Source: a virus
Direction: 5' to 3' (one strand)
IMG/VR virus record: IMGVR_UViG_3300006749_000150
Coordinates: 1 to 23,141 of that record
DNA length: 23,141 bases
The first letter of the stretch is position 1; every line of letters starts with the position of its first letter. Below, in pieces: positions 8,306 through 21,751 of the stretch. The notes under the pieces were generated by a model that saw nothing but the letters and a program-made list of their open reading frames with translations, was not told the DNA's origin and did no database searches. Position numbers and translations under genes: made by a program.

Positions 8306-8317
8306 AACTCTTAGTCT
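8279..8317. terminator. Inverted repeat at the meeting point of the convergent gene blocks
   Basis: CTAAGAGTT (8282-8290) pairs perfectly with AACTCTTAG (8306-8314) around a 15-nt loop. On the rightward RNA the stem can extend with G·U, G-C and G·U pairs to 8279/8317. Both stop codons lie within it (TAG 8303-8305, TAA 8311-8313 on the minus strand). Neither side has a strong U-tract, so it is a candidate two-way terminator or RNA 3'-end structure rather than a textbook one. Confidence 0.5.
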
Positions 8318-11300
8318 AAATCTTCTGCACGTCGTGCAAGTATACGTCGCGCCTGTCTAGCTGAAGTACTTATACCACCTAACTGTCTTGATATTTCATC
8401 GGTCGTCCTATGTTGATCCATAGAACGCCTTAAAGTATCTCCACTAATCGCTACATAAGGATTTCTGCGCGAAAACTCAACCATCTCTTCGGATATATCT
8501 CGCATACTGTCTATATCCCCTTCCTTTAACGCTAAGTAATAATCTCGCATTAGGTCAGTACGTTTGGAGTTTAGCCTTCGTTCCAATCCTTTATCTCTTG
8601 CATTTATCTCTAACTGTTTTGTGTAGCCCGCAGGAGCCAAGCCAAGTGATTGAGCAAAAATATTCCACGGATTTATATCCTCTAAGATAGGATCGCCGCG
8701 AAGGGTAGTCGCTCCTTCAGTCGCGTACCGTACAGATTTCATCCCATTAGACAGCGCAGAAGGCAAGAATCTCTCTGTACCGCGCCATATCTCACCCTCA
8801 CCAACTAACCTTAACCCTTGAAGCATTCGATCTGCCGTACCATAAACTGGACCACCTAGTATTTCTGCCAAGCGCATAAGGAGGTCTTCTTCTTGACGGT
8901 TTGGTAAAGATCTATAGACCAAATTAGTCATACCAATACGTGGAGCTACGTCAACTCCCGCTACTGCATTAATTACCCCTGAGTACATACCCTCACCAAA
9001 GAAGCTTGCGGCTATACTATCAAAGTCCTCGTCTTCGTCATCTAAGAATATTGTATTGGCTAGGAGCGCAATCGCACCGTAAAGCGGTAGTCCTTGAACT
9101 CCTGCTAACAACCCAGAAGAAGCAAACAATCCTACAATCTGTCTTTTGGCAATTCGTTTTGTTTCTTCAGCAGCAACTTGTGCATCTTGCCTATCTGCGT
9201 CTGTTAATTGAGACTCATCACCATCATATTTATCAGCAGCAATACGTCTTATTTCTCTAGGTAATGAATCTGCAAGTAACTGTTTAGCCATCTTATACTG
9301 TAAATAGTACATAGAAATGCCAAATCGTTTGTACATCATCATTACGTTACCCGCATCACCTTGAGCAAAACGAGGTGCGGTTTCAATCATAGCTCCACTG
9401 TTAGTTAGTTCTACATCTGATAGAGCAATGTCAGCAGCTTCTTGAAAATCTGTTTCGGTAAGTTCTCCTTTTTTAGCGCGTTTTGCTAACTCTAAATCGT
9501 AAGAAGCCATTGCAGTAACTTGTCGGTTAAAGCGTTCGCCTTGATGGAACATCCAACCCATATAAGCATTCGCCGTACTCCAAGCGGTGTTAGCAGGGTT
9601 TTCCATCTCTAAGTTTTCGGCAGTAGTAGAGATGTTAGCTTGCCCACGAGCTTCCAACATTTCAGTAAGAGCTTTATATCTTGCCAACTCAGGAGAAAGA
9701 TTAGGGTCATTAAAGTCTATGTTGGATAGCGACGGACCTTCAAAGATTTCCGTACCGCCTGTCTCTTCATTAAACACTTCAGTCCTACGGTTCATGCCGG
9801 TAGCGAAAAACGTCTTCCGTGCATTGTTCATCGCCTTCATAGTGTCTTTGTATCCGTACTTACCGCCTAAATAGGGCAGTACTACTATGGGTAAGTTACT
9901 GGCGTTTACTAGTACAGAAGATACGTTAAAGCCTAACGTCATTCCAAAACCCGCACTCTTAAGTGCTTTACTCCAAGTAGCTATCCTAGGATTACGTGCA
10001 AAGTCTATATACCCCTGCAAGTTTGCGTTAAGTGCTTCTGCTCCTGCCTGTAAGTCTGGAGTCCTATATGAATTTGCAGCTAAATTTATTTTTTCGCTTA
10101 TTTCGCTAAGTGCTAAGTCATGTTTAAGGTTTACAATTTGACTTGTAAAATTAGGCATACGCTCTCTAAACACTTTTAACGCATCACGTTCAAAACCTAA
10201 GACACCTTCTCTGGGCCTAAACGCACTGATTAAAGAACGCTCTGGTAGGACATCAAACAAAGAGTCTAATATTACGTCTTGGACTTCTTGAGATACTCCT
10301 TTTGCTCTTACATCTCCTAACAATTTAAAAGCAAACTGTGAGTCAACTTGCCCAAAACGTTTGGTTCTAGGGTCACGAGTAAGCTTTTCAATACTGTTTA
10401 GCTGAAGTCCTAAAGCGTCTGCATTAGCTCTAAGTTGTCGTTCAGCTTTGTCCCGTTGAAACTTAGATTCAAAAGCTTCTTTATAGGGTTCTAAAGTTCC
10501 AGTATTTGGATCTATCGCTGAGTACATTAACCAATGTGTGCCTTTACGATAGAGTGGAAAGTACGGTTCGATAGTTTCTTTTTGCAGTAATTGAGTTAGT
10601 AGTTTATCTTTTAACGTTCTTTTTACATCTGAATCTTCTATTGCATCCAAGCGTTTTGTCATAGTCGCTACAAGTTGTTTGTACACTTCACTATAAGCAT
10701 CGCGCAATGTACTGTAAGACTCAATTACAGCTTTTCGTTGTGGACCCGACAACCCATTTAATTTGGCGTTCATGGTCTTCCACGCTTCTAACTTAGCGAC
10801 ATCACCTTCGTATGCGCTTTCTAATTTAGTAGGGTCGGTTTTTAAAAGAGTACTTTCTGCTGCCCAAAAGTCTAAAACTTCTTTAACCTTCTTATCTCCG
10901 TCAATTATATTCTCTACTTTTTTAGCAGTGTCCCTTGTTAGGTTTAAGTACCTTTGACGTTCCCCATTCTTAGTTTGAAGTAGTTTGAATAATTCTTCTG
11001 CGGGAGCGGCTATCTTTGGGTATTCATCTTTAGCAAGTTGAAACACCGCATTCAGCGGTAAGAAGTCTAATAGCTTTGCTTTTGCCCCGTCGGTTGCTGT
11101 ACCAAACCATGTCCCTACTGCTTCTACATCTTCTTTAGTTACCTTACCTTTACTAAACCGACCAAGCGCATCTAATGTATTTTTCTCACCTTCTTCAATA
11201 GTAGCGGAGAATAAGCTAGCAGCATCACGAGATTCAGGAGCGGGAGAGATAAGGTCAGCAACTATCATGTCCGCTTTGTCCATAGCAGATTCTACTTTTT

Positions 11301-14157
11301 TGCTAGGTTGTCCACGGAACTTACGTATCATGTTGTTTACAATATTTTTAAACTTACTCCATAACGTAATCTTTTCGCCTTTAGCGTTAATTCTTGCTAG
11401 CTTGGCTTGGAACTCAGGATTACTAAATGCTTCTGCAATAAACTCATCAAGGTTCGTTGCACCATACGCAGTATCTAACCTGTCTCTAACTGACTCAAAC
11501 AGATTACGCATTTGTTGTGCCGCAGCAGAGTTTCCAGCAACTTCGTGAGAAGTAACTGCGTGCATGGATTCGTGAAGTAGTACATGGTTCCTAAGCGTTA
11601 CGTCTTGATTTAAAGTAATCGTGTCCGTTTTAGGATCATACAAACCAGCGACTGACTCACCTTTAGAATTAACTAAACCTCTACCCATTACTATTTTGGT
11701 GTTACCTAAACCTTTTTCTACAGCAGCGGCAACGCGAGCTACACTAGGGTCGGAACTTTGGGCAAGATCATTAAGGGCTCCACGTAAGTCTCCTGCTGCA
11801 AGTTTAGCCCGAATCTCTTGGGATAGTGGCTGACTGGTTACTGCAATAGCAGAGGCAGATAGGGGCAGCCCCATACTGTCTCTTATAAATCGTACAGTCT
11901 CAGAAAAGTCGGTTCGTGATTTTCCACTTAAGTTAGCCTTTATCCATGCTTCAGCAGCTTCGTTTTCAGTGGTTACCCCGCCAGACATATCCCCAGCAAC
12001 TGCATCAATACCTTCTTCTAACGTTTTCTTACCTTTAAAAAACTTTGCTATCGGACCATTTGGGTTAGCTTCAATCTCTGCTTGTACCCTGTTCATGTCT
12101 TCTGTTTTAGTAGTAGACGGGGGTGCTTGGTCTGGGGCTTGAGTTTCTTCTCGTTCGGCTATAACTACGTCTGGATCGACATCCGCAGTCACATCTACAT
12201 CTTCCACCACCACTTCTTCTTGTGCCGCATCTACATCCGCAGCCCCTTCTTCCACCACCACTTCTTCTTGTGCTGGTCTAGCTCTGGGACGAGTAGGACG
12301 TAAAACACCCCCACGAGGGCCAAACATTTCAAGTTGCTCTTGACCCTGACTGTCTAACGCTTCATCCACACGTTGTTCGGCGGCAATTTGTGCGTCTAAA
12401 TCAGCACCTATTTCTACTTCTTGTTGTGCTATAGCATCAGCAGCGGCAGCTTGAATAACAGGAATTTCTAACTGAGCTTCGCCCGGTGCTTCTCTACCTG
12501 TCCTCTGCGCTCTGTCAAAAGCATCTTCTATAACATTGAGTCCTTCAGGTTTAGCAGCACGAGCAAGAGCTGAAGTTTGAGCTTTGTCTTCTTCTAATTG
12601 CGCTTCGCGTTGAGCAAAAGCTGCATCTACTTCTTCCTGTCTAATATCTTGTGCAATAGCGTCATCTATTGTTGTTTGTACTGATGCAGGACCGCTATCA
12701 GCAGGTTGTGCTTGCGCTTCAGTCGTAGCAAAAGCGTCTTTAAAAGCAGGAACAGTAAGAAGACTAAGTGCTTTTTTACGGTTTTCTGGGTAGCGTGATT
12801 TAACTGTAGGATTGTCCGCGTAGGCTATGATGTCGGCTACGCCTTGTTGCGCTTGTTCAGAGTTTGACAGATCAAGAGCAGTAAGTTTCTTTTGTAGTGT
12901 TACGCTTGTAATCCCTAAATCTTTTAGTTCTTCTTTAGATATACTTGTTTTTCTACCCGCTACAACTTCAGGTAGCAATTCTCTTTGTGCACCTTCAGCA
13001 GTCAGACGCGCTTCTTCCGCTAAAGCTTCTTCGTAAGCAGGAGCAAACCTTGCAGGATAAGCAACTCCTTCGGGGTTTACCATTATAGTAGAAGGATCGG
13101 ATGGAGTCGGTGGCGGCAGTATTGCTTTATTTTGCTCCAAAGCTGGTCGAGTAGGAGATGTTCTTTCTAAAATTTCGCCCTCTAAAGGGGCTTGAGGAGG
13201 CGGCAATGTTGCGGTTTGTGTACGCTGCCCAATAGTTTCTTTTTCTTGTTGCGTTAAATCCATACCCCCACGACGACGACCGGGAATAGCAAGTTCAGCC
13301 AATGCAGATAGCAGTCCACCTACTCCTGCACCATAACCAAGAGACTCTCCTGTACCCGTAAACGTGCCAGTTTCAGGGTCGTAAATACCTTGAGAGATAA
13401 GATTCTGTGCTACTTCTGCCGAAGCTTCTTGGAGTCCTTCCCCTCCTGCGGCACTAGCTACTCTGCGTAATCGGGATAACACATCACCAGCGGGCTGGTC
13501 GCCAAGAGATTTACCTAAACCTTTAGCAGTTCTAGCTGCGCGAATAGTCTTACCTATAGCAAACGGTACTAGTGTCTCACCTAATCCGGGGATTATACCC
13601 AGTCCTGCCGCTTTACTAATCTGTTCTTCAGTAGCTCCCGCTGCTTCTGCTCGTTTTGCAGCTTCACCTGATCCAGCAGCCGCACCTAACCCCACACCTG
13701 TACCTAAAGCTACTCTACTAGCTAGACTTCCTAAGCCGCCTAATCCACCTAGGCCACCTGTAGCGATAAAAGGAATAGTAGAACCTGTAGCTTCTGCTAG
13801 TTTACGAACAACGGTATCTTCATAACCGCCTCTAGGTAATAGTCCTTCTTGGACCCCAGCTCCGTATTCAGCAATAGCTTTACGTGCAGCTTGTTCTTGC
13901 TCTTCAGGAAGTAAAAACGCCGCTCCAGTAGCGGCTGATTCAAGAAGTCCCGCAGCGCCACTAGCTAACCCTTTACCAACTTCACTAGCATAACCTCCTA
14001 AAGTAGTTTCAGGTGGCTCAAGAGGGTCTATACCTGCCTCTCTTTTTTGTAAGGCCGCAGGAGCATAGATTTGTGTACGTTGTTGGGGGGTTGTCCCTTC
14101 AGGTACGTAGTAATCTATTGTACTACCGTCTGTTAAGTTAGCACGGGCTATAGGCAT
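8311..14157 (-). CDS. Giant internal virion/ejection-type protein with zincin metallopeptidase motif (polyvalent protein)
   Basis: A 1948-residue virion-type protein. The start ATG at 14157 has an AAGGAG site. Residues 1-35 form a small 'LTDG..DYYVPEGTTPQQ' module frequent at phage protein N-termini. Residues 54-300 are Gly/Ala-rich with hydrophobic stretches (FIATGGLGGLGGLGSLASRV) like ejection proteins. Residues ~300-700 are a disordered Gln/Glu/Ala region with an acidic repeat. A gluzincin motif LLHESMHAV (His862, Glu863, His866) is followed by DEFIAEAFSN (Glu905/Glu909), a plausible third zinc ligand. Residues ~1000-1600 are helical. A MMMYKRFGISMYYLQYKMA block near 1610 and a hydrophobic segment (~1675-1702) followed by DDEDEDFD recall the LPD38/PLxRFG region of large polyvalent phage proteins. 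It is likely packaged and injected with the DNA (inference). Domain naming beyond the zincin is tentative. Confidence 0.85.
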   Translation of the reverse strand: MPIARANLTDGSTIDYYVPEGTTPQQRTQIYAPAALQKREAGIDPLEPPETTLGGYASEVGKGLASGAAGLLESAATGAAFLLPEEQEQAARKAIAEYGAGVQEGLLPRGGYEDTVVRKLAEATGSTIPFIATGGLGGLGGLGSLASRVALGTGVGLGAAAGSGEAAKRAEAAGATEEQISKAAGLGIIPGLGETLVPFAIGKTIRAARTAKGLGKSLGDQPAGDVLSRLRRVASAAGGEGLQEASAEVAQNLISQGIYDPETGTFTGTGESLGYGAGVGGLLSALAELAIPGRRRGGMDLTQQEKETIGQRTQTATLPPPQAPLEGEILERTSPTRPALEQNKAILPPPTPSDPSTIMVNPEGVAYPARFAPAYEEALAEEARLTAEGAQRELLPEVVAGRKTSISKEELKDLGITSVTLQKKLTALDLSNSEQAQQGVADIIAYADNPTVKSRYPENRKKALSLLTVPAFKDAFATTEAQAQPADSGPASVQTTIDDAIAQDIRQEEVDAAFAQREAQLEEDKAQTSALARAAKPEGLNVIEDAFDRAQRTGREAPGEAQLEIPVIQAAAADAIAQQEVEIGADLDAQIAAEQRVDEALDSQGQEQLEMFGPRGGVLRPTRPRARPAQEEVVVEEGAADVDAAQEEVVVEDVDVTADVDPDVVIAEREETQAPDQAPPSTTKTEDMNRVQAEIEANPNGPIAKFFKGKKTLEEGIDAVAGDMSGGVTTENEAAEAWIKANLSGKSRTDFSETVRFIRDSMGLPLSASAIAVTSQPLSQEIRAKLAAGDLRGALNDLAQSSDPSVARVAAAVEKGLGNTKIVMGRGLVNSKGESVAGLYDPKTDTITLNQDVTLRNHVLLHESMHAVTSHEVAGNSAAAQQMRNLFESVRDRLDTAYGATNLDEFIAEAFSNPEFQAKLARINAKGEKITLWSKFKNIVNNMIRKFRGQPSKKVESAMDKADMIVADLISPAPESRDAASLFSATIEEGEKNTLDALGRFSKGKVTKEDVEAVGTWFGTATDGAKAKLLDFLPLNAVFQLAKDEYPKIAAPAEELFKLLQTKNGERQRYLNLTRDTAKKVENIIDGDKKVKEVLDFWAAESTLLKTDPTKLESAYEGDVAKLEAWKTMNAKLNGLSGPQRKAVIESYSTLRDAYSEVYKQLVATMTKRLDAIEDSDVKRTLKDKLLTQLLQKETIEPYFPLYRKGTHWLMYSAIDPNTGTLEPYKEAFESKFQRDKAERQLRANADALGLQLNSIEKLTRDPRTKRFGQVDSQFAFKLLGDVRAKGVSQEVQDVILDSLFDVLPERSLISAFRPREGVLGFERDALKVFRERMPNFTSQIVNLKHDLALSEISEKINLAANSYRTPDLQAGAEALNANLQGYIDFARNPRIATWSKALKSAGFGMTLGFNVSSVLVNASNLPIVVLPYLGGKYGYKDTMKAMNNARKTFFATGMNRRTEVFNEETGGTEIFEGPSLSNIDFNDPNLSPELARYKALTEMLEARGQANISTTAENLEMENPANTAWSTANAYMGWMFHQGERFNRQVTAMASYDLELAKRAKKGELTETDFQEAADIALSDVELTNSGAMIETAPRFAQGDAGNVMMMYKRFGISMYYLQYKMAKQLLADSLPREIRRIAADKYDGDESQLTDADRQDAQVAAEETKRIAKRQIVGLFASSGLLAGVQGLPLYGAIALLANTIFLDDEDEDFDSIAASFFGEGMYSGVINAVAGVDVAPRIGMTNLVYRSLPNRQEEDLLMRLAEILGGPVYGTADRMLQGLRLVGEGEIWRGTERFLPSALSNGMKSVRYATEGATTLRGDPILEDINPWNIFAQSLGLAPAGYTKQLEINARDKGLERRLNSKRTDLMRDYYLALKEGDIDSMRDISEEMVEFSRRNPYVAISGDTLRRSMDQHRTTDEISRQLGGISTSARQARRILARRAEDLD
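12201..12273 (-). repeat. Direct repeat (25 bp twice, 48-bp period) encoding an acidic linker
   Basis: The 25 bases at 12201-12225 recur exactly at 12249-12273. On the minus strand they encode two copies of AQEEVVVE inside the disordered middle of the 1948-residue protein. The period is 16 codons, so gain or loss of a unit keeps the frame. Confidence 0.85.
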
Positions 14158-14170
14158 AGTGGACTCCTTA

Positions 14171-16156
14171 TTATCCTACAATACCCGCATCACCTGCTAC
14201 ACCTGTAACCATACCTTTACCTAAAGCACTTTCTTTTGCAGCGTTTACGTATCTTTCTATGGTGTTGTTTAAGAGGACACCTTTTGCCACATCATATTCT
14301 GCCGTACCAAAATCATAAGTGTCAGCTAAATCGTCTAGTGCCGCTCTGTACTCTGGGTCTAAATCTAATCTTCCTAAAGCCTTATTAGCAATATCAAGAA
14401 CCGCTGTATCTATCTTTCCTGTGTAATCAGCATTTAACTTTGCCACAGCTAACCTATAGTCTTGTTGTGCAATGTTTTGTTTTAACAACCTATCAAGCGC
14501 CTGTGCATTCAACGCTTCTGCCTGTCTTCTTTCTGCTAACTCGTAAGCATTTAAACGCCGTCCTGCACCACCTAACGCGCCAGCAGTAGTAGTTTGTCCT
14601 GCACCACCCAACAAAAACTCACTTAACGCACGGAAGTCTATGTCTTGTTCTGAGTCTTCTTTAGGCTTTCTACCCACTCTAGGTTGGTCCATTATGCTAC
14701 GTAGTTTCTCTAAATTAGTAGGTTCACCTCGATACATAGCAGCAGTAATACCTTCATTTTGTGGAAGGCTTGGCTCACTGTCTTGCGTTTCTCTTCTAGG
14801 CATACGATCTTCAGGAGGGAGATTGCTAATTTGTTCTTCTATTTGTGCTATTCTTTCTTCCTGCATTCTAGGAGTGAACGCTCCTGTTGCGTCCATCATC
14901 CCCATACGCAACATAGCTTCTTTAGATACGCCTTGAGATTCAGGTAATGTGCTTAGTATTCCCCTTATATCCCTAGCCATATCAAAAGGTCCGTACACCA
15001 TACCAACATCTCGAACTTGATCTACTTCAATGGCTTCCTCCGGGGAGTATAAATTTTCTTCAACATCAAATCGTGTCTCAGCATTAAGATCAACAACTGG
15101 ATCGCCTTGTGCAAAACTGACAATCCCACCTTGTTGTTTATTGACTACACCTCGACCCATCAAAATATCTTTACGAGTAATTTTACCGTCACCGCTTAAA
15201 TCAGGGAATCCACCTTCTTTAAGAGACACAATACCGCCACCTGCCATGTCATTTGCAGCTAAAGCTTTAGCCCTAGCCTCTTTCAAAAGGTTTAATTCGT
15301 TTAATAATTCTGGAGGTGCATCTGTTGGAAAGACATTCCCTTTCGTTGGAATATCCATCATTTTTGCCTTTCTACGGGGTCTTGTTATAAGGTCTATTTC
15401 TCTTTCTAAAAGACGTATTCTTTCTGCAAACTCTTTACTTAACGGGTTCATTGGTCCAGTAGGATCTTGTGAGGTCAACGTTTCAAACATTTCATTCATG
15501 TTTTTATTTGTAGACTGCCTACCCATTTCATCATACATAGCCCCGCCTTTTGCATACCCAACAATACCACCACCTACCATGCCAGCAGTGTTTTCAGGAG
15601 TGGGTGCAGGAGCTTGAGCCGCAGTGCTACCTTCATAGTTCATTAGCTCACGGCGTATATTTCGCAAGCCTTCTTGGTTACCTTCAGCAAGAAATTTAGC
15701 CTCTATCTCTTTAAGTTTTAAATACCTTTGACGTTGAGCTTCTTCTGAGCTTGGGCTTAAGAAGGGAGCGTCTTGTTGTTTAGTTTTTCCACCTTCTGCA
15801 TACCCAACAATCCCGCCTTGTGCAGCTCTCATCATATTAGGAGCGGGCATACCAGCCACCCCTTGAGTTTGTTGCATTTGAGTGCCACGTTGCTGTATGC
15901 CGGGAGCGAGTTCAGAAATAATTTCATTACGGGAAGTCATTAAAGCTTCTTGCTCTAGTTGATCCCTTACAGTACTAGGATTAGTCTGCATAGATGCTTG
16001 AATTTGATTTGCCGCAGCTTGTTTCTCATTGTTAAGTTGTTGTAAAGCAAGCAAGTCAATTAGTTGCTGACTTTGCGCGTACCGTTGCTGTAGTGCTTGT
16101 GGGTTGTTTGCGTAAGCACTCTCTCGCATACTAACTTCTTCAAATATACCAGCCAT
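14171..16156 (-). CDS. Virion-associated protein with repeated GGIVxYAxGG motifs and an EF-hand-like loop
   Basis: A 661-residue protein of unknown biochemical role in the late block. The start ATG at 16156 follows AGGAGA; the gene is 2 bp after its upstream neighbour. The N-terminus (1-100) is Gln-rich and helical. The motif GGIVGYAEGG occurs at 114-123 and in variants at 196-205 (GGIVGYAKGG), 307-316 (GGIVSLKEGG) and 343-352 (GGIVSFAQGD). Residues 319-330 (DLSGDGKITRKD) match a dockerin/EF-hand calcium loop. Residues ~500-661 are helical (ALGGAGRRLNAYELAERRQA, then TAVLDIANKALGRL) and may be an assembly domain. Position between other Gly-rich late proteins suggests an internal or tail-associated virion component. 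No enzymatic motif is visible. Confidence 0.8.
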   Translation of the reverse strand: MAGIFEEVSMRESAYANNPQALQQRYAQSQQLIDLLALQQLNNEKQAAANQIQASMQTNPSTVRDQLEQEALMTSRNEIISELAPGIQQRGTQMQQTQGVAGMPAPNMMRAAQGGIVGYAEGGKTKQQDAPFLSPSSEEAQRQRYLKLKEIEAKFLAEGNQEGLRNIRRELMNYEGSTAAQAPAPTPENTAGMVGGGIVGYAKGGAMYDEMGRQSTNKNMNEMFETLTSQDPTGPMNPLSKEFAERIRLLEREIDLITRPRRKAKMMDIPTKGNVFPTDAPPELLNELNLLKEARAKALAANDMAGGGIVSLKEGGFPDLSGDGKITRKDILMGRGVVNKQQGGIVSFAQGDPVVDLNAETRFDVEENLYSPEEAIEVDQVRDVGMVYGPFDMARDIRGILSTLPESQGVSKEAMLRMGMMDATGAFTPRMQEERIAQIEEQISNLPPEDRMPRRETQDSEPSLPQNEGITAAMYRGEPTNLEKLRSIMDQPRVGRKPKEDSEQDIDFRALSEFLLGGAGQTTTAGALGGAGRRLNAYELAERRQAEALNAQALDRLLKQNIAQQDYRLAVAKLNADYTGKIDTAVLDIANKALGRLDLDPEYRAALDDLADTYDFGTAEYDVAKGVLLNNTIERYVNAAKESALGKGMVTGVAGDAGIVG

Positions 16157-16158
16157 TA

Positions 16159-16983
16159 CTAATCTCCTAAGAAACCTAAACTGCTAAGAAGGCTTACGAT
16201 ACCGCCCGCACCTTCCATAACATTAGATGCAGTACTTACTTCAGGGTACTGATAGCTTTGAGTGCTAATAGGCAAGCCTTGTAGTAGCGACTGCTGGTAC
16301 TGTATTTTTTTGAAAGGATCATCTCTTTCAGTTTCAAACTGAGCTATATCTGCCATAACTCCTTGGCTTTCGATAGCACGTTGTTCTGCACCACCTGCGC
16401 GTTGAGCGGCTAAAGCTTGCAATCCATAATTTTGTTCAGTGTTAAATTGATTCTGTGCTTGCTGAAAAGCGTCTTGATAACCTGCGCCTGTGATTCCTGC
16501 CATTCTATCTAATAAACCACGCTGTAGTTCAGCTTCCGCAATCCCTTGACGTGACCCACCATACGCTCCTGCCTTACCGTACTGACTTTGCAGTCCTTGC
16601 TGAGCTATATCAGCTTGTCTTCTTGCGGCTGCATATTGCGGTTCAAGTGCGCCTTGTAAGTAAGGAGTCATGTATTGTTGAAGTACGCTATCTGTAGCGG
16701 GAGCATAAGTCCCTGTTTGTCCCATTGCGGCTTGCTCGGCGGTAGGTGGAGTATACCCTGCACCTGTAAATGACCCTGCCATACTTGCTTGTGGGACGGC
16801 TAAATTAGCAAGTCCTGTAAAAGCTTGATTCTGTAGTTGCGATTGTCCAGCAGTAAGTGGTCCTTGGTAGGCTTGATAGGGCATATCTGCTAACGCAGCA
16901 CCCTTACCCAGCATCTCGCTAACGTAAGGCCCAGCATAGGGAGATAGAGAACTGCTTGTTCCTAAAAAAGTAGGAGTTGCCAT
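16159..16983 (-). CDS. Putative internal virion / DNA-ejection protein (274 aa)
   Basis: A 274-residue protein rich in Gln, Ala and Gly. It has an N-terminal segment SLSPYAGPYVSEMLGKGAAL, a central helical region (QYAAARRQADIAQQGLQSQY, then GAYGGSRQGIAEAELQRG), a DDPFKKIQYQQSLLQGLPI segment, and a hydrophobic C-terminus (GGIVSLLSSLGFLGD). The Gln/Ala-rich helical composition and size resemble short-tailed-phage ejection proteins (T7 gp14 or P22 gp7 class), though I cannot show homology by eye. The ATG at 16983 has an AAGGAAA site and follows the previous stop by 10 bp. The terminal GGIVS echoes the repeated motif of the 661-residue neighbour. Confidence 0.78.
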   Translation of the reverse strand: MATPTFLGTSSSLSPYAGPYVSEMLGKGAALADMPYQAYQGPLTAGQSQLQNQAFTGLANLAVPQASMAGSFTGAGYTPPTAEQAAMGQTGTYAPATDSVLQQYMTPYLQGALEPQYAAARRQADIAQQGLQSQYGKAGAYGGSRQGIAEAELQRGLLDRMAGITGAGYQDAFQQAQNQFNTEQNYGLQALAAQRAGGAEQRAIESQGVMADIAQFETERDDPFKKIQYQQSLLQGLPISTQSYQYPEVSTASNVMEGAGGIVSLLSSLGFLGD

Positions 16984-16993
16984 AGTTGTTTCC

Positions 16994-19249
16994 TTACGCC
17001 AAATATTGATTAGGGTTTATTTGCTTACCCTGTTTAGGATTACCAGTGCGGTCTTTACGCACTCTTTCCATCATACTGTACAGGTTCTGCGCTCCTGCAT
17101 CGGAGTTACCATTACCCAAATGGCTTACCACATCTGCGGGTATAACAAATTCACCATCACTTAATCTAGCTGGCTGCGTACCGCCTATTGTAGCAGGAAC
17201 TTGATCTGCCATACCATCCGTAGAACCGCCTAAGTAGTACTGTTCTATATCACCACCTTGAGCATATTGGTCAGGGTATAAGTATTTATTAACATCAGCT
17301 ACAGTGGTGTTGCCATATAGATCTGGGTACAGAGTACTATAATACTCAAGAACTTCGTTAACATCTGTGTTACCTGCCTTTATAAGACGAGTAATAAGGT
17401 CTTCTTCTTCTATACCTAAATCAGTAGCTAATTGATTCGGAGTTTTTTCTCCTGAACGCAACTGCTCTTCAAAAAAGTTAAAGTTTGGCCCCATTGGACT
17501 TTCATCACTAGACTCATCAACAAAATCAATAACAGAATCAGTAGTAGGTGTAGTAGGTATAACAGGTGTAACAGGTGTAACAGGTGTAGTAGGTATAACA
17601 GGTGTAACAGGTGTAACAGGTGTAGCAGCAGTGCTAGTGTCCGTTGGAATTGCACCTAAGAAAGAATTAGCTAAGGCTATATTTTCTGCTTCTTGAGCTG
17701 CCAAAGCTTGTGTATATGCAGCATTTTGAGCCGCTATCTGCTCCGCACCTATGATGGCAGGAAGTCCACCCTCTGTAGTGCTAGTGGGTGTGTACTGAAC
17801 ATCTGTAAAGTATCGTCTTCCTGCACCACCGGGCCGTCTACCAGTATTATCAAAAGCATTAGGTACTAGCTCTCGTGTTGCCTTATAGTCAGGAATACCG
17901 CCCTGATAGCCTTGACTTCCTTGAGTGCTAGCACTTCCACCAAGCCCTCCTGCTAATCCGCCTAAACCAGCTCCAATAAGACCGATTAAGTTTTGGTTCT
18001 TATCGTCCTTTAGAAAGTCCATAACCTTACTGCCAAAACCTTTTGGAGAACCGCCATTATTAAACTTCTGCACAGGCCCACCTTTGTTATATATGTACGG
18101 CATAATATCCTCGTCATTGCTAATGTCAGGTGCAAAAATACTCGGCCCTGCAATATTATATAAATAGTCTATATCTACTAAACCACCGGGGTCTACCTGT
18201 ACCATGCGCTGCCCAGCAGAAGATGTACCAAAACCACCACCTCCACCACCAGATGATTCAGAAGCTACAGCGGGCGTTTTAGGTTCGGGCGCAGGTTGAT
18301 CTGTACCTGCATTAGTACGTGGTATAGCAGCAGGTGTTAAATCCCCAACTGTTGATACTTTAGGTTTTGTAGGGTCTTGAATATCTATCGTTGGTACTTT
18401 AGGTGTTGTAGTTTCGGTGAGTGATAAAGACTCTGGTGGAGGTGTACCCTTAACAACTGTATCAAGGTCACCCATATCTCCGGTAACATCTAATTGTTCT
18501 ACTCCACTCGATCCAATCTTTGGTTCTTTTCCAAGGTCAACACCAATAGCTGTAGGAGCAGGGACAATATCTTTTGCGCTTTCAATTATGTCTCTTACTT
18601 GCTCTGTAGACATTCCTGTTTCGGTAGCTGCTGTACCTACTAAAATATCTTCTATGGTACTTCTACTTAGAACATCTCCAGCCGCTGCTTTACCTGTAAG
18701 CACTCCAGTTACTTTGTTTAATACAGCATCAATAGTTGGATCGCCTGTCGTCACTCCTGTTTGTGTACCACCGGGCGTTGTGCCTGTACCTATTACTGGG
18801 CTACCACCGGTTTGCCCCCATACTACTGTACCGCTTTTTTGTATAGGAGCGCCGATTACTTTAGTAGGGTTAGGCAGCTTGAGAATATCAAAAACAGTAT
18901 CTATACCCTCACCGACCTGTGTACCTATGTTTCGTACAGTTTCTGTAGGAGACAAGCTAGTAATTTGATTAATTAAATCTGTGTTTCCTAACTCCGCAGC
19001 TTGTTGTAGTAGGTCTACTTCTTGCTCACCCACACCTTCAATATCTTCTGGACCACCTGCCATACCGGGAGTGGGTTGTGCTAGTAACGTAGCTAGACCT
19101 TCCTCAATAGCATACCTTTCTGCTTCTTCAGGAGTCATGGGGGTAGCTTCCATACCGCCCCTACCAAAAAGAGCATCTAACCCAAAAAGCCCCGCAGACT
19201 GTAGTAAGGATTTAAGCGCTTTGGATAATACTATTGTTTCTACTGCCAT
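16994..19249 (-). CDS. Large Gly/Pro-rich virion protein with VTP repeats and conserved phage C-terminal motif
   Basis: A 751-residue late protein. I chose ATG 19249 (MAVETIVLSK), 7 bp after the upstream stop. A longer version would need a TTG at 19294 and a 38-bp overlap with the previous gene. Order of parts: a hydrophobic N-terminus; a Thr/Pro/Gly-rich disordered region; GGPVQKFNNGG (18050-18082) followed by NLIGLIGAGLGGLAGGLGGS, a membrane-active-looking stretch; a VTPVTPVIPTTP repeat linker; a small helical domain (NQLATDLGIEEEDLITRLIK); GGDIEQYYLGG (17225-17257); and a C-terminal block ARLSDGEFVIPADVVSHLGN, which I recognise as recurrent in marine phage virion proteins. A tail or ejection role is inferred from context. 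No enzyme motif is seen. Confidence 0.78.
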   Translation of the reverse strand: MAVETIVLSKALKSLLQSAGLFGLDALFGRGGMEATPMTPEEAERYAIEEGLATLLAQPTPGMAGGPEDIEGVGEQEVDLLQQAAELGNTDLINQITSLSPTETVRNIGTQVGEGIDTVFDILKLPNPTKVIGAPIQKSGTVVWGQTGGSPVIGTGTTPGGTQTGVTTGDPTIDAVLNKVTGVLTGKAAAGDVLSRSTIEDILVGTAATETGMSTEQVRDIIESAKDIVPAPTAIGVDLGKEPKIGSSGVEQLDVTGDMGDLDTVVKGTPPPESLSLTETTTPKVPTIDIQDPTKPKVSTVGDLTPAAIPRTNAGTDQPAPEPKTPAVASESSGGGGGGFGTSSAGQRMVQVDPGGLVDIDYLYNIAGPSIFAPDISNDEDIMPYIYNKGGPVQKFNNGGSPKGFGSKVMDFLKDDKNQNLIGLIGAGLGGLAGGLGGSASTQGSQGYQGGIPDYKATRELVPNAFDNTGRRPGGAGRRYFTDVQYTPTSTTEGGLPAIIGAEQIAAQNAAYTQALAAQEAENIALANSFLGAIPTDTSTAATPVTPVTPVIPTTPVTPVTPVIPTTPTTDSVIDFVDESSDESPMGPNFNFFEEQLRSGEKTPNQLATDLGIEEEDLITRLIKAGNTDVNEVLEYYSTLYPDLYGNTTVADVNKYLYPDQYAQGGDIEQYYLGGSTDGMADQVPATIGGTQPARLSDGEFVIPADVVSHLGNGNSDAGAQNLYSMMERVRKDRTGNPKQGKQINPNQYLA
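17547..17627 (-). repeat. Tandem repeat: nine 9-bp units in 36-bp higher-order units
   Basis: Nine consecutive copies of a GGTRTARYA unit run from 17547 to 17627. Four units make a 36-bp period (17547-17582) that is repeated exactly (17583-17618), with a ninth variant unit after it. The minus strand encodes the proline-rich stretch VTPVTPVIPTTP, twice. All units are multiples of three, so changes in number stay in frame. Confidence 0.92.
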
Positions 19250-19256
19250 ACTAAAC

Positions 19257-19904
19257 CTACGGTGTTGGTAGCGTTTCTGGCAACGCTGACACAAAAGTTA
19301 CAGTTACTAGGGTAGACGGCACGGCAGGGCGGGGACTTGCAGCCGCCTGATAATCAACCGTTATGTTTGTATCGTCTGTTGCCCACATAAGTTCTATATA
19401 TTGCCCTGCTTGTATGTCTATTGTAAAACTGTACCCAAAGTCATCTACTCCACCTGACCCTGATACTACGTGCAGTCTACCAGTATTTGCTATATCTACC
19501 CCACTCCTACGCACCCAGAACGACACTTCTTTTGCGCTAGCACTACCGCTAGTAAGTTCCACTGAGAGTTCAAAGTTATAAACTCCTGAGTGAGTTGGTG
19601 TAATCCTTGTCTTTGGTGTGCCTGTTACGCTTATGGCTTCACCTAAATATGTATTCTCAAACTGTAACGCATATGCTGTGTTTATAACACTGGCGTTCTG
19701 ATCTACAGTAGAAAAGAACTTTGCATTCGGAGACTCTATAAACCGACCTCCGTACTCCCCAAACACACTGTTTATACCGCTCGATAGCAAGTTAAAAAAG
19801 AGTCGCAAGATGTTGTTCAGTGCATCAAGGTACTCTTTTAACGGCCCAGCTTTGGGTATTGGTAGCGCAGGGACTTGAACTTTCTGTACGAGCCGCTCTG
19901 CCAC
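19257..19904 (-). CDS. C1q/TNF-like jelly-roll appendage protein (tail fibre/decoration type)
   Basis: A 215-residue protein. Residues 1-55 carry an amphipathic helical anchor (LKEYLDALNNILRLFFNLL). Residues 65-205 show the alternating beta pattern of phage C1q-like domains: STVDQNASVINTAYALQFEN, ITPTHSGVYNFELSVEL, EVSFWVRRSGVDIANTG, FTIDIQAGQYIELMWATDD, and a closing VPSTLVTVTFVSA strand. These domains form trimers and act as receptor-binding or capsid/tail decoration proteins. The start is GTG at 19904, sharing its G with the previous stop (TAG TG), with AGGAG 6 bp upstream, so translation is coupled to the tail-nozzle gene. Which surface it decorates is not shown by sequence. Confidence 0.78.
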   Translation of the reverse strand: MAERLVQKVQVPALPIPKAGPLKEYLDALNNILRLFFNLLSSGINSVFGEYGGRFIESPNAKFFSTVDQNASVINTAYALQFENTYLGEAISVTGTPKTRITPTHSGVYNFELSVELTSGSASAKEVSFWVRRSGVDIANTGRLHVVSGSGGVDDFGYSFTIDIQAGQYIELMWATDDTNITVDYQAAASPRPAVPSTLVTVTFVSALPETLPTP

Positions 19905-21751
19905 TAGCCTCTCCTGCCGTCAGGACGCATCTCCAATCGTGGTATACCTAACTTCCATGCTACACCTAGCTCAGTAGACTCAAGCTTAAACGCCATCTGC
20001 CTACCCCGTACACGCACAAATACTTGCCCTGTAAACTTCTCAATAGGTACAGTAGCAGAACGAGTTACCGTAGCGTTGTCTACGCCACCCTCAGATGTAG
20101 GGTTATAGTAACCAGAACCAGAGTTCTCCATAGGGAACAGAGTCATCACTGCCGCAGGGCTATCTACTGTAGACCCCTCAAACGTTATGTCAGGGAGCAT
20201 ACGATTAATAAACATAAACCTGTCACCATTATCCAAATCAAACTCAGAGGATAAGAGCGTAGCTGTAATGGCAGAAGGCACACCCGTTTGGTTATCATCC
20301 ATACCGACTTCATGATTAACTAAGTTGTTACTGTAAGTAGCAGCTAGTGGGTTCTCTCTAAGATCAGCGTCTATCCAAGCACTACGTGATAGGTTTCCGT
20401 AATACCAAATGTCTTGTAGGTAGTTGTACACCACATATCGGTCATTCTGTGTAGACCCCTCAGAGCAATAGAACCACCATACCTCGTCGAACCGCTCGTT
20501 AGTACCCGCTATGACTTGTGCATACTGAGTGAAGTTAAAGTCATTAAACACATAACTTCGTACACTACACGGTAGGGTCTTAACCGTACCATCGTACATA
20601 TAGAACTTGTCAGTGCCCATCCAGTACGCAATGTTGCCTGAATAAGCCGCTGCATTAGGACCAGCTATTGTTATGTTATCGCCTAATAACTGAGCACCCC
20701 ACACCTCTGGTGCGCCTAAATACTGCATACCGTACAGCGCAGTGTCAGTCCAAATAAGAACCTCTTGTCGTGCTTGTAGAGTTGTAATGATTTCACTACC
20801 CCTAGACAGACGTAAGCTACCTGCTTGATTAGTCGCCGCAGGAGTCCAGTTAGCTACATCCTCTTGGTCAGACCAGCGAATCAACATAGGATCAAGAGTG
20901 GCACTGCCCAGTGCGTTTGAACCAAAACAAAAGGCAAAACGGAAGATGTCTGATACAAAGGTCTTGTTAACTATAGTAGGCACGTTGGATGCACCACCGA
21001 GAGAAGATACGTACACTGCACGAGTTGTCAGATCATTACTCGCATCCCAGTAGAATATAGGCCCACCCCTGTAGCCAAAGAACAAGTCCTCACCAAAGTT
21101 AGACTGGCTCCATATCCGCATAGGAGCATCTGTAGCACCACTGCTCCCCCAAGTGCCTGACCCCCAAGTGCCAGCACTCCAACCTCTAAACGGAACGGCA
21201 ATCTCGTTACCTGTGTTTATCTGATACACCGCAGTGACTGTACCTCCACCCGTAGCAGCAGACGACGCTTGGCTTGCGGCAGTTATGTTGTAAGAATCCT
21301 CGTCTATAAAACTAATCTGAAACTCACCGTTTAGGGTAAGACCGCCCACTGCTGAAGCACCACTAAACGTAACAAAGTCATTCTGAAGCGCACCGTGTGC
21401 AACGTCAGCAACGAGAACAGTAGTAGAGTTTAGCGTTGTGGTAAACGGGTTTGTCAGCGTTGCTGTGGCTCTAACAGGAGTAACATCAAAGTAAGCTCCA
21501 CCACGCTCGATGTAGTACTTGAGGTTAGTGCCTACGGCTACAAGGTTCTGCCTCTGGAGAGTAACCCAGTTAAGCATAGACCGACACACACCAAGAAAAG
21601 TAGCAGCAGATATACGTACCCAACCTCCAATCTTCTGAGGCATACCCCGTCTGAACCGCACCTTATCTGTTTCGTACCAACTGCCTTCAGCCGCATACCG
21701 CGTATTTTCACGGTCAACTCCCGGCTTTAACTGTAGTTGTTGTAGTGGCAT
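19904..21751 (-). CDS. Tail nozzle / packaged-DNA stabilisation protein, P22 gp10-like, with FCCH-like insert
   Basis: A 615-residue structural protein. The N-terminal pattern LKPGVDRENTRYAAEGSW, then DKVRFRRGMPQKIGGW, is typical of podovirus tail stabilisation/nozzle proteins. Repeated blade-like strands follow (VGTNLKYYIERGGAYFDVTP; ARQEVLIWTDTALYGMQYLG; YWMGTDKFYMYDGTVKTLPC; VWWFYCSEGS), indicating a beta-propeller. Residues ~99-178 are a separate beta insert (HGALQNDFVTFSGASAVGGL, then DSYNITAA) resembling the FCCH-like insert of phage tail proteins. The protein would sit at the tail tip below the portal. The ATG at 21751 has GAGGT 6 bp upstream and lies 12 bp after the muramidase gene. 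The structural class is confident; the exact tail position is inferred. Confidence 0.82.
   Translation of the reverse strand: MPLQQLQLKPGVDRENTRYAAEGSWYETDKVRFRRGMPQKIGGWVRISAATFLGVCRSMLNWVTLQRQNLVAVGTNLKYYIERGGAYFDVTPVRATATLTNPFTTTLNSTTVLVADVAHGALQNDFVTFSGASAVGGLTLNGEFQISFIDEDSYNITAASQASSAATGGGTVTAVYQINTGNEIAVPFRGWSAGTWGSGTWGSSGATDAPMRIWSQSNFGEDLFFGYRGGPIFYWDASNDLTTRAVYVSSLGGASNVPTIVNKTFVSDIFRFAFCFGSNALGSATLDPMLIRWSDQEDVANWTPAATNQAGSLRLSRGSEIITTLQARQEVLIWTDTALYGMQYLGAPEVWGAQLLGDNITIAGPNAAAYSGNIAYWMGTDKFYMYDGTVKTLPCSVRSYVFNDFNFTQYAQVIAGTNERFDEVWWFYCSEGSTQNDRYVVYNYLQDIWYYGNLSRSAWIDADLRENPLAATYSNNLVNHEVGMDDNQTGVPSAITATLLSSEFDLDNGDRFMFINRMLPDITFEGSTVDSPAAVMTLFPMENSGSGYYNPTSEGGVDNATVTRSATVPIEKFTGQVFVRVRGRQMAFKLESTELGVAWKLGIPRLEMRPDGRRG

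Follow-up and report, generated by a model that had tools for sequence, protein, structure and literature searches.

For most podophages, the coupling of ejected proteins to the tail during DNA passage is an open question. The virus record studied here, a stretch of 23,141 bases that we refer to as the window, bears on this question: a short glycine-framed peptide, GGIVxYAxGG, had been noticed by the initial annotation in adjacent genes, and a docking tag for a common partner, a signal for packaging inside the capsid and a membrane-inserting turn had been offered as its possible functions.

The genes concerned are located on the minus strand and encode, in order of transcription, proteins of 615 (positions 19904..21751), 215, 751 (16994..19249), 274 (16159..16983), 661 (14171..16156) and 1948 residues (8311..14157). 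The 615-residue protein belongs to the family phrog_3287 and marks the podophage tail region. It is similar to proteins annotated as phage stabilization protein, and some of its relatives in DSL-LC04, HTVC023P, HTVC027P, 023Pt_psg01, MinM2 and CRP-902, whose gene order was read, carry this annotation. The 751-residue protein is counted from its ATG start; the list of open reading frames gives 766 residues from an upstream TTG. A match to a known ejection protein family was obtained for the 274-residue protein (DNA ejection protein, phrog_4287, E 2e-07) and not for the 661- and 751-residue proteins. The giant 1948-residue protein is devoid of the motif, and in its C-terminal part it resembles DarB-like and other large phage families. 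The same protein contains HESMHAVTSHE, a metalloprotease-like HExxH peptide, near weak family matches (residues 824-870).

This gene order is well preserved. Around the 661-type gene of 80 loci, a 274-type gene is found at offset -1 in 77, a 751-type gene at offset -2 in 71, and the giant protein at offset +1 in 58, and both the window and its relatives show the place after the tail genes that is typical of ejection cassettes. From synteny and family assignments we infer that the window carries a podophage ejection cassette, and the earlier designation of its products as virion proteins is consistent with the same evidence.

The 661-residue protein consists of an N-terminal helical domain (residues 1-97, 15866..16156), linkers that carry the motif, and a C-terminal helical region. 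No Pfam or PHROG family matched it at a meaningful E-value, and fold comparison of its model gave no match at E 0.001 or better. A tblastn search with the 661-type family against named phages returned one weak match (E 0.3) to an EF-hand-like stretch and otherwise none, such that among them no cultured phage turned out to have a recognisable 661-type protein. All four copies announced by the initial annotation are in place, namely GGIVGYAEGG (residues 114-123, 15788..15817), GGIVGYAKGG (196-205, 15542..15571), GGIVSLKEGG (307-316, 15209..15238), and GGIVSFAQGD (343-352, 15101..15130), although the fourth ends in GD and thus lacks the closing glycine pair. They are spaced by 82, 111 and 36 residues. 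The core GG[ILVM][VILA]x[YFL], observed four times in the protein, appeared in 20,000 shuffles of the whole protein not at all (19,005 cases), once (975) or twice (20). The predicted AlphaFold model has pLDDT below 50 at residues 98-133, 182-214, 304-326 and 332-427, around the motif copies, and so supports the suggestion that these sit in disordered linkers. Between copies 3 and 4, at 15149-15208 (residues 317-336), lies FPDLSGDGKITRKDILMGRG, which we take to be an EF-hand or dockerin-like loop. A loop of this type occurs in six of 81 members of the 661 family and also alone in an 88-residue protein of HTVC027P (L127:4889-5155).

Homologues were gathered with residues 1-95 of the 661-residue protein only, and hence the motif was excluded from the query. 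Eighty were counted, including the window and leaving out one locus (L001) that is near-identical to it. The core is present in 73 of the 80, and in 73 of 73 its first copy lies at residue 112-144. Shuffling within 20-residue windows, which preserves the local glycine content, yielded on average 3.5 cores and at most 9 in 200 rounds, compared to 90 observed, and the motif is thus conserved above its linker background. Among the seven homologues without a core, L198 is truncated where its contig ends, L158, L194 and L218 show variant glycine-glycine peptides close by, and L183-L185 are identical to each other over the inspected stretch.

In its full form, the motif reads M-A-x-G-G-I-V-[AG]-[FY]-x-x-G-G in these homologues. 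Removal of near-duplicates reduced the 73 sequences to 50. The search expression had fixed the first two glycines, whereas positions 3 and 4 could each be one of four residues and position 6 one of three. Within this choice Ile was found in 48, Val in 45, and Phe or Tyr in 47 of the 50; Met at -3 (43), Ala at -2 (48) and the closing glycines (40 and 32) were left unconstrained by the expression. In an alignment of 59 sequences (A3), G115 is invariant, while A112, G114, I116 and G122 are conserved to at least 90%. The fuller expression [MFY]AxGG[IVL][VIA]x[FYL] is matched in 67 of the 80 homologues, a copy with closing GG in only 44. Synonymous codons for the motif residues vary while the amino acids stay. 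Homologues therefore keep more than a glycine-rich composition, and, as judged from these sequences, the motif is maintained by selection. The same does not hold for the conserved copy spacing that had been anticipated: extra copies are few in the homologues, their spacing and number are variable, and copy 1 is the only conserved one, copies 2 and 3 being lineage-specific.

The codons of the motif are skewed. In the 661 family, GCG encodes Ala at position 5 in 20 of 32 cases (7 expected), GTT encodes Val at position 4 in 30 of 45 (15.6 expected), and ATT encodes Ile at position 3 in 37 of 48 (22.7 expected). Other motif-bearing open reading frames (ORFs) have a similar excess of GGG at position 5 (22 of 50, 8.3 expected). 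This skew may be due to shared ancestry, or else to a constraint at the nucleotide level.

Of the further peptides that the initial annotation had drawn into the same series, GGIVSLLSS is indeed present near the C-terminus of the 274-residue protein (residue 260, 16180..16206). It belongs, however, to a separate C-terminal motif, [AS]GG[IL][VLA]xL[LYI], that is found at this place in 11 of 79 proteins, and its identity with GGIVxYAxGG was rejected. The two related peptides reported for the 751-residue protein are likewise both present, GGPVQKFNNGG at residue 390 (18050..18082) and GGDIEQYYLGG at residue 665 (17225..17257), but they comprise 11 residues, with Pro or Asp in place of Ile, and the protein has no match to the core expression. 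A peptide similar to the former was encountered only in close relatives (L148 and L149-L151). The latter, with an Ala two residues earlier, forms an AxGG element whose hydrophobic pair is lost (GGDIEQ) and which directly precedes a C-terminal module, TDGMAD...LSDGEFVIPADVV (16997..17224).

This module, recognisable by its GE[FY]V wording, ends 70 of 74 proteins at offset -2, and [AN]xGG is found 10-60 residues upstream of it in 69 of these 74. In an alignment of 37 sequences of the 751 type (A5), G64 and G65 are invariant and A62 is conserved to at least 90%. With the module of the DSL-LC04 homologue as query, 1184 of 50,697 phage records were matched, and among the 60 matching records listed, most are annotated as tape measure protein; in eight of ten named records inspected, AxGG again lies upstream. 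Among PHROG families, it matches those of tape measure proteins, with seven of 27 segments matching phrog_3547. Of 58 segments obtained in the collection of homologues, one (L182, offset +1) was a false match. Solved tape measure chains were matched as well (E about 0.001 to 0.007), namely 8rk3 at residues 1005-1056 and 8zdo, the gp16 chain of Douge, in two stretches. Length and residue numbers indicate that 8rk3 is the tape measure chain of JBD30. By these profile matches, the module of the 751-type proteins is homologous to the one found at the C-terminus of siphophage tape measure proteins. Its AlphaFold model has mostly pLDDT below 50.

Within the neighbourhood of the 661-type gene, cores occur at offsets -3 to +1, with a single core in 289 more distant ORFs. 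Those at offsets -3 (11 of 68) and +1 (8 of 73) were rejected as instances of the motif, as they look like chance: they fall mostly in very long proteins, and all but one are without the M-A-x-G-G context. Beyond the family, the decapeptide pattern was found in at least 119 stretches of the viral contig collection (viral_contigs), all of those listed being located in an ORF. Residue order matters, since the reversed peptide gave seven stretches and an exchange of YA to AY thirteen; among the latter, several read GGIVGAYAGGG and lie in long ORFs resembling tape measure proteins. The bare decapeptide is not specific to phages, though, and was rejected as such a marker. Bacterial genomes hold at least 119 stretches, and 102 of the 119 listed are in frame, mostly in unrelated cellular proteins. 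What distinguishes the viral sites is Ala at -2, which is present in 53 of 73 viral motif sites versus 6 of 77 other genomic sites (the window itself left out of the viral set and near-duplicates removed); among the six, at least one (L329) resembles a phage protein of this kind.

The PHROG matches of 62 shorter motif-bearing ORFs include tape measure and DNA ejection proteins, injection transglycosylases and an internal virion protein that has an endolysin domain; an SLT domain is present in five of the 62. Thirteen longer ORFs match tape measure families, up to nine of them a single one. Since the bare decapeptide also occurs in unrelated cellular proteins, the likeness between the motifs of tape measure and 661-type proteins could be convergent. 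Marine phage ORFs of many different lengths carry a widespread sister form, GGRVG[YF]xxGG (viral_contigs, L348 onward). The search pattern, which also admitted Ser instead of Arg, placed 114 of 119 listed stretches in frame, with Ala at -2 in 52 of 104 non-redundant ones, and some of these ORFs have the GE[FY]V wording in addition. In those parts of the literature that were accessible, most subscription papers lying outside, a search by peptide and topic found no description of the motif, and no link of a podophage cassette protein to the tape measure module was met.

We tentatively propose, as a reading that is close to evenly balanced, that the AxGG[IV] peptides of the podophage ejection cassette are docking motifs in the tail or ejection conduit. 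The glycines would leave the peptide free for threading through a narrow exit, whereupon I-V-x-F/Y, joining a partner at the tail exit or in the periplasmic conduit under assembly as an added short strand, would hold the ejected chain in register; extra copies would add avidity. Of the three functions offered at the outset, a docking tag fits best, as packaging into the capsid and insertion into a membrane are both weakened by the following considerations.

A tag that binds portal, scaffold or capsid interior and thereby recruits its protein into the procapsid would suit a cassette of this kind, as podophage ejection proteins must enter the procapsid; the motif adjoins an N-terminal domain that could be the delivery domain, and numerous marine phage ORFs of unequal length contain the related GGRVG[YF]xxGG. 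Nevertheless, AxGG elements, and in some cases a full GGIVxYAxGG, also occur in siphophage tape measure proteins, where AxGG precedes the homologous module, and these proteins are not packaged in the head. Even granting that this occurrence could be convergent, we consider a head-packaging tag unlikely. It is the sharing of module and AxGG with tape measure proteins that favours the conduit over the head as the site of action, a preference that presupposes a single motif in both and that convergence could undo. Unlikely, too, is a turn whose I-V-x-F/Y tip, framed by glycines, would enter the outer or the inner membrane as ejection proceeds. It may be likened to the hydrophobic hairpin tips of tail hub proteins. 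Hydrophobic and aromatic residues stand between glycines in proteins that are expected to reach the envelope, and the hub of T5 inserts a Leu-Phe-Gly-Leu hairpin tip (PMC10038345, seen in part). Acidic or Gln residues often follow the motif, however, and the choice of residues within it is strict for Ile, Val, Ala and Met alike. Tips that insert into membranes generally accept L, W or M, and the narrow residue choice thus weakens this explanation.

The fixed place of the motif directly after the N-terminal domain would also suit a maturation protease that cuts at or near M-A-x-G-G and frees this domain. In T5, the tape measure protein is cut after R1127 (PMC10038345, as far as that report was available), and the residues that follow are A-E-G-G. 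Yet the agreement with T5 is a single case, conservation spans -3 to +10, and no fixed basic residue precedes the motif (Arg at -4 in 10 of 50), such that we regard maturation cleavage as improbable. Least of all do we expect the motif to be explained by a glycine-rich background in the linkers or by a surface beta-helix repeat, presumably of the GLUG type. Cellular proteins of such look commonly contain decapeptides with the same wording, but chance and glycine background were dropped on the shuffling of homologues and the reversed and swapped peptides, the beta-helix repeat was dropped as no GLUG-type Pfam family matched window proteins or scanned motif ORFs, and the enrichment of Ala at -2 in viral sites speaks against both.

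A near-invariant motif at a fixed place, together with a shared module, names residues for mutation, and with the motif ejection cassettes can be spotted in contigs of marine phages that have no database family matches. In addition, motif and module connect two delivery systems that tend to be considered separately.

Compared with the podophage ejection proteins of P22 (gp7, gp20, gp16) and T7 (gp14, gp15, gp16), the 661- and 751-type proteins share the order beside phrog_3287 and phrog_4287 genes, and two of 59 relatives have a transglycosylase domain, as in T7 gp16. Unlike them, the 661-type protein has no sequence match to any of these proteins, and the motif is not mentioned in the accessible parts of the review consulted. 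In T7 gp16, a 'molecular tape' (residues 157-228), an extended segment after a small domain, stitches tunnel subunits, according to the accessible portion of PMC8954989; the comparison with the 661-type protein is one of working alike only, as no sequence relation was found.

The siphophage tape measure proteins stand closer to the 751-type protein. Both have the SDxIPA...LSxGE[FY]V wording with AxGG just upstream at a C-terminal place, and both are destined to exit through the tail. In contrast, the 751-residue protein of the window belongs to the cassette of a short-tailed phage, adjoins a DNA ejection protein gene, and separates IPA from GE[FY]V by a longer insert. It also lacks the long coiled body that sets tail length; many complete 751-type homologues comprise only about 210-410 residues and follow podophage gene order. 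Once T5 has bound its receptor, the end of its tape measure protein is seen wedged between subunits of the hub (PMC10038345, seen in part), and this protein, where anchoring is seen, does not match the module profile. In T5 pb2 (L228), AEGGMMYPGVSYQMGEHGTEVV follows the reported cleavage site R1127, again with an AxGG element.

In the available parts of the reports on the two phage structures with the module, JBD30 and Douge, only residues nearer the C-terminus are built; for Douge, only residues 1658-1699, outside the module, are assigned (PMC13033339). For JBD30, residues 1022-1066 of gp46 are predicted to form a hook that comprises two helices and one short hairpin; the authors of that report speculate that the hook anchors the tape measure in the baseplate once the C-terminus has left (PMC11445458, consulted in part). 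The shared tape measure piece suggests that injected proteins are retained at the tail exit in a common manner. A shared anchoring code, in which the AxGG[IV] docking peptide and the GE[FY]V hook seat the last part of the injected chain in the tail exit of short- and long-tailed phages alike, is possible but on the doubtful side; if it is true, tape measure and podophage ejection proteins are the same device at that end.
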